Below are positions 3,381 to 9,434 of a stretch of DNA of 64,000 nt, piece by piece. The stretch comes from Pseudomonas sp. Bc-h (GTDB taxonomy: Bacteria; Pseudomonadota; Gammaproteobacteria; Pseudomonadales; Pseudomonadaceae), in contig NZ_MUIN01000010.1 in the NCBI RefSeq assembly GCF_002080045.1, positions 1 through 64,000 on the forward strand, written 5' to 3'. Position 1 is the stretch's first letter. Every line of letters begins with the position of its first letter. The position numbers and the translations under genes are program-made. The notes under the pieces are model-generated. The model saw only the letters and a list, made by a program, of their open reading frames with translations. It searched no databases and was not told the DNA's origin.

Positions 3381-3423
3381 GAATCAGCTTTTATGTAAGC
3401 CAGCATTCGGTATAGCTGAACGC
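3381..3423 (-). promoter_or_regulatory. Second ItcR-type regulator site, upstream of TRAP genes
   Basis: This 43-nt stretch aligns without gaps to 9392-9434, the region between ich and itcR: I count 30 identical positions, including GAATCAGC at one end and GCTGAACGC at the other. It contains an imperfect dyad GCATTC-N9-GAACGC (3403-3423), a LysR-type T-N11-A arrangement. It has the same orientation relative to the downstream leftward gene as the ich copy. It probably lets the regulator drive the transporter as a separate transcript. Confidence 0.7.
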
Positions 3424-3463
3424 CGGTGCTCGTGTGCCCCTTCCCCATCACCCGCGTTCTAGA

Positions 3464-3492
3464 CAGCGTGCCTTACGGAAACTAGCACGCTG
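3464..3492. terminator. Hairpin after ccl
   Basis: A perfect 8-bp inverted repeat, CAGCGTGC (3464-3471) and GCACGCTG (3485-3492), lies just past the stop of the citramalyl-CoA lyase gene. No T-run follows on the minus strand, so it may be a weak terminator or an RNA-stabilising hairpin separating the catabolic genes from the transporter promoter. Confidence 0.4.
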
Positions 3493-3519
3493 GGTGAAAA
3501 GTGCCACTATTGCTGACGC

Positions 3520-4344
3520 TCAACCCGCGGCCAATGCCAGTAATCGTTGGGCCCGCAACAACACTGGCGCATCTACCATTTGTCCGTCGAGCTGAAATGC
3601 ACCTGCGCCGTTAGCGGCTGCGCTGGCATCGACCACCCGCTTTGCCCAGCTCAGATCGTCCGCGCTTGGGGCAAGTGCTGCATGGATGACCGGCACCTGC
3701 TTGGGGTGAATGCACAGCGCGCCGCCGTAACCCATGTCATAGGCGTGACGGATCGCGCGGTGCAGCCCCTCAGGATCACCGATCGCCGGGTGCACGCCGT
3801 CCAGCGGCGGCAGCAGGTTGGCGCCTCGCGAGTGCAGTTGTACAGAAATGCGCGCCTGATCGAGAAACATCTGCGCCGCAGGTGTGCCGGTGTTCAAGTT
3901 CAAGTCCAGGCCCAGATCCAGCCCACCGAACGACAGGCGCTCGACGCCCGGCGCATGCGCGATCTGCTCCAGCGCCAGCAAACCCTTGGCGCTCTCGATG
4001 ATCGGCCACACCGGTTTCCCGGTTTGCCAGACCGCCGCCACCTGGGCCGCGCTTTCGACTTTAGGCAGCAGCACCCCGGCGACGCCGGTCTGTTGTTTGC
4101 AGAACGCCAGATCCGCAACGTGCTCGGCATGCTCCGGCGCATTGACTCGCACCCAGACCGCAGCCTGAGGATAACCTTGCAGAAACGCCGCCAGATGGTC
4201 GCGGGCCTGACGCTTGAGCGGCTCTTCGACGGCGTCTTCGAAATCGACGATCACCGCATCCGCGCCCGCGGCCAGGGCCTTGGCGAAACGCTCGGGCCGG
4301 CTGCCGGGCACGAACAATGCGGAGCGGACGATGGATTGGGGCAT
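3520..4344 (-). CDS. ccl: Citramalyl-CoA lyase (CitE/HpcH family), itaconate pathway
   Basis: The 274-residue product is a CitE-like TIM-barrel lyase. The N-terminal RSALFVPGSRPERFAKAL, the acidic metal site VIVDFEDAVEEPLKRQAR, the WVRVNAPEH strand and the IESAKGLLAL and SFGGLDLGLDL motifs are all present. In the itaconate pathway this enzyme cleaves (S)-citramalyl-CoA to pyruvate and acetyl-CoA. The start at 4344 follows AAGGAAG; the open frame upstream runs into a repeat element and is not coding. It lies downstream of ict, in the order seen at P. aeruginosa PA0882-PA0883. General citrate-lyase beta homologues look similar, so the specific assignment rests on context. Confidence 0.88.
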   Translation of the reverse strand: MPQSIVRSALFVPGSRPERFAKALAAGADAVIVDFEDAVEEPLKRQARDHLAAFLQGYPQAAVWVRVNAPEHAEHVADLAFCKQQTGVAGVLLPKVESAAQVAAVWQTGKPVWPIIESAKGLLALEQIAHAPGVERLSFGGLDLGLDLNLNTGTPAAQMFLDQARISVQLHSRGANLLPPLDGVHPAIGDPEGLHRAIRHAYDMGYGGALCIHPKQVPVIHAALAPSADDLSWAKRVVDASAAANGAGAFQLDGQMVDAPVLLRAQRLLALAAG

Positions 4345-4415
4345 GGTGTGCTTCCTTATGAAAATATCCTGCGATGTGACGGATCGTTCGCGGTGGGTCG
4401 GCGGACATACAACCC

Positions 4416-4503
4416 GTGGGAGCGAGCTTGCTCGCGAAGGGATCTCAGACCCGGCATCTGTGCCGCCTGACACCCTTCATTCGCCAGCGAGCTCCCTCCC
4501 ACA
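4416..4503. repeat. REPIN, family A, between ict and ccl
   Basis: Inverted pair of GTGGGAGCGAGCTTGCTCGCG-type ends: GTGGGAG...TTGCTCGCGAAG begins at 4416 and the opposed CGCCAGCGAGCTCCCTCCCAC ends at 4503. The same family recurs at 15131, 17745, 27979, 31923, 36478 and 44350. This copy lies inside the itaconate catabolic operon. Confidence 0.75.
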
Positions 4504-8422: not shown

Positions 8423-8490
8423 CGTGTCTGCTCGCGTCTACCAGCGGCCCGTCGCGATGGGCGGGCCTGGCTATATAAAGGAAGAAGGAT

Positions 8491-9330
8491 TCAGTCGAAG
8501 CTGACTTCGGCGCTCTGCGCGACCCCAGCTTCATTACCCGCCCACAGCTGAGCCTTGCCCGGTTCGGTGATACGACCGCCGACCCGAAACGCCGCGGGCA
8601 CGTTCAACGGCCGTACGCCGCGATAGGCGAAGTGACGCACGCGCTTGCCAGGGTTGCCGCGGATGAACGCGCGAAGGTTGAAGGTGGCGATCATCGGGCC
8701 GTGAACCACCAGACCTGGATAGCCTTCGGTTTCGGTCACGTAGGGGTAGTCGTAATGAATGCGGTGGCCGTTGAAGGTCACTGCCGAATAGCGGAACAAC
8801 AAGGTGGGGGTCGGCTCGATGGTCTCGCTCCAGTCACCTTGCTCAGGCGCCTCACCGCTGTTGAGCTTCGGCGGATTGGGCTCGCGATAGACGATGTCTT
8901 GCTCCTCACGCACGCACAATTGGCCGTTTTGCGAGTAGTCGTGACGCACCGTAACGAACAACAGCGAGCCGGTGCGGCCGTGCTTTTCTTCGATGTGCAG
9001 GATGGTCGACAGGCGATGGGCGTCGGCACCGACTTTCAACGGCTGGATGAACTCCACACGACCACCGGCCCACATGCGGTTACGGTTGTCGGCCGGAGGC
9101 AGAAAGCCGCCGCGGGCCGGGTGGCCATCGCCGCCCAGTTGCGCCTCGAAAACCGGTTCCTGGAAAAAACACCACTGCCACAGCGCAGGCAACGGGTCGC
9201 CGTCGGCTGGCGTAGGCTCGCCGAAGGTGGCGGCAATGCGCTTGATCAGGTTGTGGCTCAGGTGATCCTGAGCTTCCTCGGTCCGTCCGATCCAGGCACT
9301 GAAATCCACTGGCGAATCTGAAGCACTCAT
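8491..9330 (-). CDS. ich: Itaconyl-CoA hydratase (MaoC/hot-dog family)
   Basis: This 279-residue protein belongs to the MaoC-like double hot-dog hydratases related to mesaconyl-C4-CoA hydratase. Visible features are WIGRTEEAQDHLSHNLIKRIAATFGEP at the N terminus, GGDGHPARGGFLPPADNRNRMWAGG in the first hot-dog, and FNGHRIHYDYPYVTETEGYPGLVVHGPMIA in the second, with the aspartate and histidine typical of hydratase-2 active sites. It would hydrate itaconyl-CoA to citramalyl-CoA. It is the first gene after the divergent itcR promoter, as in P. aeruginosa PA0877-PA0878. Confidence 0.88.
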   Translation of the reverse strand: MSASDSPVDFSAWIGRTEEAQDHLSHNLIKRIAATFGEPTPADGDPLPALWQWCFFQEPVFEAQLGGDGHPARGGFLPPADNRNRMWAGGRVEFIQPLKVGADAHRLSTILHIEEKHGRTGSLLFVTVRHDYSQNGQLCVREEQDIVYREPNPPKLNSGEAPEQGDWSETIEPTPTLLFRYSAVTFNGHRIHYDYPYVTETEGYPGLVVHGPMIATFNLRAFIRGNPGKRVRHFAYRGVRPLNVPAAFRVGGRITEPGKAQLWAGNEAGVAQSAEVSFD

Positions 9331-9349
9331 GGGAGAGAACCCTCTGCAT

Positions 9350-9357
9350 TTGTTGTT
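9350..9357 (-). promoter_or_regulatory. Candidate Hfq/Crc A-rich target upstream of ich
   Basis: On the minus strand this reads AACAACAA, about 20 nt before the ich start codon and just ahead of the AGAGGG ribosome-binding region. It is a perfect match to the AAYAAYAA core of Hfq/Crc targets. A similar motif precedes the transporter gene of the same pathway. Regulation is inferred. Confidence 0.5.
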
Positions 9358-9391
9358 ATGAACGGATCATGAGATTGGCCTGGCATTCTGT

Positions 9392-9434
9392 GAATCAGCA
9401 TTTGCATAAGACCGCGTTCATGTATGCTGAACGC
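9392..9434. promoter_or_regulatory. ItcR operator in the itcR-ich intergenic region
   Basis: The 127-bp divergent region holds a perfect dyad GCGTTC-N9-GAACGC (9414-9434), of the T-N11-A form bound by LysR-type regulators, followed toward ich by TAAG...GAATCAGC sequences repeated upstream of the TRAP genes. By analogy with LysR systems the dyad would be the high-affinity recognition site, and the segment toward ich the activation site. Confidence 0.7.

Follow-up and report, generated by a model that had tools for sequence, protein, structure and literature searches.

The question raised by this locus is whether the importer of a bacterial itaconate pathway is transcribed only along with the enzymes of the pathway or also has a promoter of its own. 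The window, by which we mean the whole stretch of 64,000 nucleotides (nt) that was analysed (Pseudomonas sp. Bc-h, contig NZ_MUIN01000010.1, positions 1 to 64,000), has a regulator gene, itcR, on the plus strand that diverges from the minus-strand genes ich, an acyl-coenzyme A (acyl-CoA) dehydrogenase gene, a PrpD-family gene, ict, ccl and dctPQM, the last being the genes of a tripartite ATP-independent periplasmic (TRAP) importer that we call ictPQM. Itaconate is a macrophage product that is used by Pseudomonas, and the importer sets the amount that enters. Published predictions for P. aeruginosa conflict, as importer and enzymes are given one transcript in PMC9875883 and two in PMC8526614 (these and the other papers are cited for the portions that we drew on). 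Our reading, with a probability of about 0.87, is that the locus has two ItcR-controlled promoters, one in the gap between itcR and ich for the enzymes and one in the gap between ccl and dctP for the importer. We favour a separate importer promoter because the site in the second gap is conserved, is found in the same genomes as ItcR and stays with the transporter when that is relocated.

An earlier note on this DNA had claimed that 43 nt of the ich-itcR gap (9392-9434) and 43 nt upstream of the transporter genes (3381-3423) align without gaps with 30 identities, in the same orientation to the downstream gene, and that each has a dyad of LysR type. This is borne out by direct reading and counting, which give 30 of 43 positions identical, ungapped, with both sites pointing toward the minus-strand gene downstream, ich (ATG at 9330) and dctP (ATG at 3278), at a distance from dyad centre to ATG of 94 nt at ich and 135 nt at dctP. 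The dyads are present on the gene-sense strand in the form GCGTTC-N9-GAAYGC, as GCGTTCAGCATACATGAACGC (9434-9414) and GCGTTCAGCTATACCGAATGC (3423-3403). Apart from this partner, no 43-mer on either strand of the window shares more than 25 positions with 9392-9434, and 300 dinucleotide shuffles of that site reached 26 at most. The likeness by itself is only moderately rare and would not settle the matter, a partner of at least 30 identities being found for 8 of 400 random 43-mers of the window; its weight comes from position and conservation. A scan of the 7.0-Mb genome for the literal pattern GCRTTC-N9-GAACGC gives five places, including these two sites, and its reversed control gives none. 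With a 70-position sequence model of the site (R1) these two, both of which are in its training set, are the only full-length sites in the window's genome, with E-values of 4.5e-15 (3423-3355) and 5.6e-14 (the ich site), and the next match is partial, with E 0.09.

Both promoters are about 70 nt long, and when the two families of sites are aligned they keep a common ungapped register from the dyad to the -35 region. The columns are the dyad at 1-21, T27 (mostly within TTA), AA at 32-33, ATTC at 40-43, a free stretch at 53-60 and a conserved -10 at 64-69, which sits one base further in some transporter copies. In 57 non-redundant sites G1, T4, T5, A17, A18, C21, A32, A33, A40, T41 and T42 are invariant and C43 is kept in at least 90%, and pairwise identity averages 0.95-0.97 in the arms as against 0.36-0.41 in columns 53-60. 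LysR-type promoters have a recognition dyad near -65 and an activation site near -35. Here there is an imperfect T-N11-A dyad centred near -65, counted from a start that is itself predicted, 7 nt past the -10, and there is a second conserved element at or over the -35, in which A32, A33, A40, T41 and T42 are the invariant positions. The ich promoter is also the sole sigma-70-type match in 1-10500, and taken alone this gives no evidence, because shuffles yield 2.1 such matches on average.

For conservation we searched 249 genomes of the genus for ich, of which 88 were positive, giving 94 places including that in the window, and fetched the regions of 80 of the 93 others, the 13 omitted being at contig ends or truncated or weaker matches. 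Dyads were scored as matches out of the 12 arm positions. In the 63 fetched loci where itcR adjoins ich the gap has a dyad scoring at least 10 in all 63 (12 in 52, 11 in nine and 10 in two). For the importer we took dctP rows of at least 300 bits and more than 250 amino acids with 200 nt upstream, the 154 rows comprising 61 from the window and fetched regions, 89 from 80 named loci and four others; the named set is one of records, not genomes, and several of its contigs have the same length as contigs of the genomes that carry our G numbers. An ictPQM was counted as ccl-linked if its large subunit has 85% identity or more to the window's. Among ccl-linked ictPQM the upstream dyad scores 11-12 at 47 of 47 loci when the window is taken with the 80 fetched regions, and the named records give 30 of 31, L185 scoring 10. 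The 24 canonical DctP matches used as control (23 named loci) score 9 or less, and eight named rows of second DctP-like genes, which belong to none of the classes quoted in this text, score 7 to 10. The earlier note had proposed conservation in related Pseudomonas as a check, and both sites are kept, the transporter site with the exception of several lineages. In the regions of the 17 fetched ich loci that have no ItcR gene (LysR matches there do not exceed 44%) no dyad scores 11 or more; some of the genomes concerned carry ItcR elsewhere.

The limits for the genus-wide search, E<=1e-4 for the site and E<=1e-115 for ItcR, were both fixed before either answer was known, and the site search used stricter filters. 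At least one site is present in 67 of the 249 genomes and ItcR in 67 of the 249, and they are the identical 67 genomes; the count includes related genomes, and 57 of the sites had also been used to build the model, having been retained by a likeness filter from 121 (25 of 65 ich sites and 32 of 56 transporter sites). The weight of the co-occurrence is thus on the 182 genomes without either and on the sites outside the training set, since most sites resemble the training set by descent and the genomes are related. Untrained sites adjoin ItcR or pathway genes in G081 (ItcR 64%), G290 (in another family, ItcR 58%), G347 (two sites), G375 and G519, and the third sites of G115 and G164 are also untrained. 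The site-bearing genomes have one site in 14 cases, two in 51, as in the window's genome, and three in two. Catabolic and transport genes of the pathway preceded by the site are ich, ict, ictPQM and a gene for a lone binding protein, and the site also precedes a putative pathway member, an ATP-binding cassette (ABC) operon. In a search of the whole order, in which ItcR was not sought, 7 of 293 genomes had a site, the window's included.

The co-occurrence bears directly on the proposal that a different regulator acts at the transporter site and that the likeness to the ich site is that of a common LysR-type half-site. There are many LysR-type regulators in each Pseudomonas genome, 24 to 194 by first-look candidates, another LysR-like gene (27%) lies upstream of a detached ictPQM, and Stutzerimonas has a regulator 43% identical to ItcR with dyads of its own. 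However in the genus search the sites are confined to the genomes with ItcR, the arms are identical in the ich and transporter families, and the dyads of the 43%-identical relative differ, having GCCTTC where the ItcR dyads have GCGTTC. We regard a different regulator as very unlikely.

The second line of evidence is from importers located apart from the enzymes. A 12/12 site precedes ictPQM in P. nicosulfuronedens, P. nitroreducens 381H and Pseudomonas sp. 21, where the importer genes are on another contig than the enzymes and itcR, and the enzyme cluster keeps its own site beside itcR (11/12 in two of them and an R1 match in the third, G250). The detached-importer loci are L117, L118, L119 and L131. 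That such importers might be an artefact of contig breaks was considered and is answered by G347, a single contig on which ich-itcR (4.95 Mb) and dctP-dctQ (0.06 Mb, the two importer genes within the 3-kb stretch) both have sites. In Pseudomonas sp. Au-Pse12 (L217) about 5 kb separate ccl and dctP and the site stays at dctP, and in G164 genes for an ABC importer and dehydrogenases follow ccl with a 12/12 site, and the TRAP binding protein gene, about 8 kb further on, also has a site. As a separate observation, the gene after dctM in P. nicosulfuronedens begins, by eye, like an acetyl-CoA synthetase gene.

These loci are also the main test of the proposal that ItcR binds both sites but that the transporter site is unproductive, being either an aid to occupancy at ich or a vestige, with ictPQM served by read-through. 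The -10 of the transporter copy is indeed poor and less conserved, the lineages that are without the site presumably depend on read-through, and read-through from a foreign promoter has been found to suffice (PMC9875883). Yet the site stays upstream of the importer on another contig or more than 1 Mb away, where read-through is impossible, and the transporter copy keeps the register of dyad, block and -10. We consider an unproductive site unlikely, though less so than the other alternatives.

The earlier note called the site duplicated, which says too much. In 51 genomes the two copies have a likeness of 0.699 within a genome and 0.685 between genomes, and recent duplication or gene conversion is not supported. 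The within-genome excess, small but not nil, was reached in 3 of 2000 permutations for the 43 nt, 18 of 2000 for the block and 238 of 2000 for the N9 spacer, and could reflect shared descent within lineages or both sites tracking changes in ItcR. This excess, together with the frequency of equally good partners among random 43-mers, is what can be said for a recent duplication, or a functionless chance likeness, as the whole explanation of the match. But the excess is absent from the arms and from columns 53-60, so that a recent copy would look different, and in the window and fetched regions every ccl-linked ictPQM has the site in place; we give this explanation almost no credence.

Besides the relatedness of the genomes and the double use of the training sites, several observations weigh against a separate importer promoter. 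The transporter copy is less constrained than the ich copy outside the arms (0.52 as against 0.74 in the N9 spacer, 0.72 as against 0.93 in the block and 0.55 as against 0.80 in the -10), and no consensus promoter was called at 3355-3383, upstream of ictPQM. Two sites fall outside the association with ItcR, which holds throughout the genus search: one order-wide match (L257, in G520), whose 3 kb hold none of the nine proteins sought there, is probably false, and P. nitroreducens TX1 (G251) has the importer site and no ItcR above 43% in its assembly, an incomplete case as the cluster reaches the contig end. The score is 10 or less in 9 of 9 fragi-type records (large subunit about 77%) with the binding protein gene by ccl, and in 20 of 26 records that have the binding protein gene by ccl and no membrane subunits. 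Finally PA0878-0886 placed behind a foreign promoter made the transporter useful in P. putida, which grew on itaconate at about 0.4 per hour with the importer and 0.11 without it (PMC9875883).

With regard to constraint, the ich copy is likely to be held more strictly because it also carries a possible -10 for itcR (TATGCT), from which self-repression would follow, but the hexamer is not retained in all lineages. With regard to read-through, site-less records keep the binding protein gene after ccl, mostly with short gaps of 66-141 nt downstream of ccl, so that the importer gene can presumably be served by read-through alone, and the second promoter, a trait of certain lineages, is not required. 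Read-through into ictPQM probably also occurs in the window. Terminator prediction gave nothing on the minus strand from ccl to the site (3424-3522); a folded stretch there (energy -30.9) was considered and not called, as no T run follows the fold. Thus where the earlier note set an ItcR-dependent promoter against carriage by read-through alone, the promoter is supported by conservation, by co-occurrence with ItcR and by the moved transporters, and we see it as adding to read-through rather than replacing it, given the lack of a predicted terminator and the P. putida construct. Some itaconate-type TRAP binding proteins (L060, L067, L094, L137, L144, L165, L172, L248) have no adjoining membrane subunits, with the site present in some, and these lone binding proteins may work with DctQM.

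A further proposal is that the cluster is a single operon of the PA0878-PA0886 type with one promoter at ich, and Operon-mapper does predict one operon (PMC9875883). Against this are the conservation of the importer site and the detached transporters, and also the two predicted operons of PMC8526614, with similar expression in wounds; a single promoter seems to us very improbable.

From the layout of the two promoters we infer the following course of events. The promoter in the itcR-ich gap would drive the itaconate enzymes, and probably also limit itcR, and that in the ccl-dctP gap would drive ictPQM. An ItcR tetramer would occupy each 21-bp dyad, whose centre is near -65 relative to the start, and when ItcR is bound by its inducer, which may be itaconate or a related five-carbon (C5) diacid, the second dimer would contact the AAAnGCnnATTC block that overlaps the -35. 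So placed, ItcR could recruit RNA polymerase to a poor -10. The importer would in this way have ItcR-driven transcription that is independent of its distance from ich, plus any read-through from the enzyme genes.

A binding protein, a small and a large membrane subunit are linked to ich, ict and ccl, as in IctPQM. PA0884-PA0886 of P. aeruginosa binds and imports itaconate, and PA0884 has Val234 where DctP has Leu, a change that could allow itaconate (PMC12599236). At the position mapped from alignments to Val234 the IctP of the window has Ile, neither Val nor Leu. Ile is also found at this position in 47 of 47 ccl-linked importers of the window and fetched regions and 30 of 31 in the named records, with Val in P. 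aeruginosa PA7; Val is also the residue in the four detached importers of the nitroreducens group, and the 24 canonical matches have Leu. Ile would fit a branched residue in place of Leu, and the window protein is a candidate itaconate binder. In phmmer it scores 525.5 bits with PA5167 DctP, slightly above the 516.3 with PA0884. In a tree of 60 hand-picked DctP proteins the 13 canonical ones are together and those with the site fall into at least three groups.

The ABC operon is a further candidate member of the regulon. In G115 an ABC operon of the kind seen in G164 lies on the opposite side of itcR and has a site, so that its position relative to itcR differs between the two genomes. Its binding protein is found in 2 of the 249 genomes at E<=1e-100, these being G115 and G164 (77% alike), both with the site. 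By Pfam the G115 operon has a branched-chain-type ABC importer, an aldehyde dehydrogenase, and short-chain and zinc alcohol dehydrogenases. The loci of the ABC operon are L251:472-8495 (site near 8546-8611, minus strand), and L069 and L248 (G164). We would give even odds that the ItcR promoter is a module that accompanies whatever uptake system the pathway has, be it a TRAP importer, a lone binding protein or an ABC importer. If so, the ABC member would extend the itaconate regulon to a new substrate, for example an alcohol or aldehyde precursor of a C5 diacid. The site model predicts regulon members, this operon included, from sequence alone. A separate observation concerns L137:15064-18481 and L168:12948-16350, where a regulator 43% identical to ItcR is flanked by a divergent CoA-transferase gene and a DctP-like gene. 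Both flanking genes have upstream a GCCTTC-N9-GAAG-like dyad, which matches the ItcR dyad at 9-10 of 12 positions, and an AATT block in matching register; it is possible that these form a sister regulon with the same two-promoter plan. R1 also has weak matches at G250:C13:198650-198715 (E 0.015) and G251:C67:3001-3066 (E 0.27), in clusters where a LysR gene with 43% identity to ItcR accompanies a further ccl copy (59-61%).

The features of the locus are in Table 1. The cluster names are taken from P. aeruginosa PA0877-PA0886 (PMC9875883, PMC12599236), in which PA0878 is ich (PMC9875883), and the name itcR is from PMC8526614. The name ccl is given on position and likeness to PA0883, because the product matched NCBIfam RipC_Ccl below the cut-off (146 of 375 bits). 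The closest named relative found is P. abietaniphila, at 96-99% for ich, the acyl-CoA dehydrogenase and ictPQM. Two further gaps, between ccl and ict (4400-4510) and between ict and the prpD-like gene (5775-5890), have by eye repeat-like inverted sequences, which we take to resemble the repetitive extragenic palindromic (REP) elements of Pseudomonas.

Table 1. Genes and predicted promoter elements of the itaconate locus (positions in the window)
Feature	Position	Strand	Basis or remarks
itcR, LysR-type regulator	9458..10387	+	Pfam HTH_1, LysR_substrate; 82% to the PA0877-position protein of P. aeruginosa PA7 (tblastn)
ich, itaconyl-CoA hydratase-like	8491..9330	-	70% to the same-position PA7 protein; weak Pfam FAS1_DH_region
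acyl-CoA dehydrogenase, PA0879-like	7259..8422	-	Pfam
MmgE/PrpD family protein, PA0881-like	5899..7248	-	Pfam
ict, family III CoA-transferase	4545..5744	-	Pfam CoA_transf_3; 78% to PA7
ccl, citramalyl-CoA lyase-like	3520..4344	-	Pfam HpcH_HpaI; 62% to PA7 (PA0883)
ictP (dctP-type), periplasmic binding protein	2283..3278	-	
ictQ, TRAP small membrane subunit	1553..2242	-	Pfam DctQ
ictM, TRAP large membrane subunit	270..1553	-	Pfam DctM; 90% to PA7
ictPQM promoter, predicted ItcR recognition dyad GCGTTCAGCTATACCGAATGC	3403..3423	-	T-N11-A inside; direct reading, R1, conservation
ictPQM promoter, rest	3355..3402	-	column register as ich promoter; hexamers predicted by alignment
ictPQM promoter, TTA	3398-3396	-	
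ictPQM promoter, block AAAAGCTGATTC	3392-3381	-	
ictPQM promoter, predicted -35 TTCTCT	3383-3378	-	17-nt spacer to -10
ictPQM promoter, weak predicted -10 CATCGT	3360-3355	-	
ictPQM promoter, predicted start	near 3348	-	
ich promoter, predicted ItcR recognition dyad GCGTTCAGCATACATGAACGC	9414..9434	-	direct reading, R1, conservation
possible itcR -10 TATGCT	9423-9428	+	inside ich dyad spacer
ich promoter, rest	9366..9413	-	includes TTA motif
ich promoter, block AAATGCTGATTC	9403-9392	-	
ich promoter, predicted -35 TTCACA	9394-9389	-	17-nt spacer to -10
ich promoter, predicted -10 CATGAT	9371-9366	-	
ich promoter, predicted start	near 9359	-	dyad centre at -65

Systems of this kind are known, and new as far as searched are the importer operator, its independence of position and the ABC regulon member. 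We did not find an ItcR site upstream of the importer, or the ABC member, described in the portions of the literature covered. By text search neither "LysR" nor "PA0877" is in the main texts of PMC12599236 and PMC9875883; "promoter" is absent from the main text of the first and occurs five times in that of the second, in passages that concern the foreign promoter P14f. In PMC13086498 PA0877 is listed, in the portion consulted, only among regulators of a motility pathway, and "itaconate" is absent from the main text. The portions of PMC12051497 and PMC9636186 covered had nothing further on the importer site.

The closest known system is P. aeruginosa PA0877-PA0886, which has the regulator family and gene order of the window. 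The record of strain PA7 has the window's gene order and scores 12/12 for both sites, so that the PA7 importer too would have its own ItcR-type promoter. In PMC9875883 the one predicted operon is given 112 bp before PA0884, and the PAO1 primer JDW048 printed there, with which the PA0884 side of a PA0883 deletion starts, contains the first 16 nt of the PA7 transporter dyad. The window differs in having no room for the ring-cleaving dioxygenase PA0880, there being 10 nt between the PA0879- and PA0881-like genes. PA0878-0886 is treated as one predicted operon in PMC9875883. With IctPQM (PA0884-PA0886, PMC12599236) the window's importer shares the link to the enzymes, the ENTWSNY stretch and a beta-branched residue for the Leu of DctP, although that residue is Val234 in PA0884 and Ile in the window. 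The ich promoter has the T-N11-A dyad, spacing and divergent regulator gene of LysR-type promoters. In contrast to the usual LysR-type layout, the window's gene cluster includes a further promoter built in this way that lacks a divergent gene.

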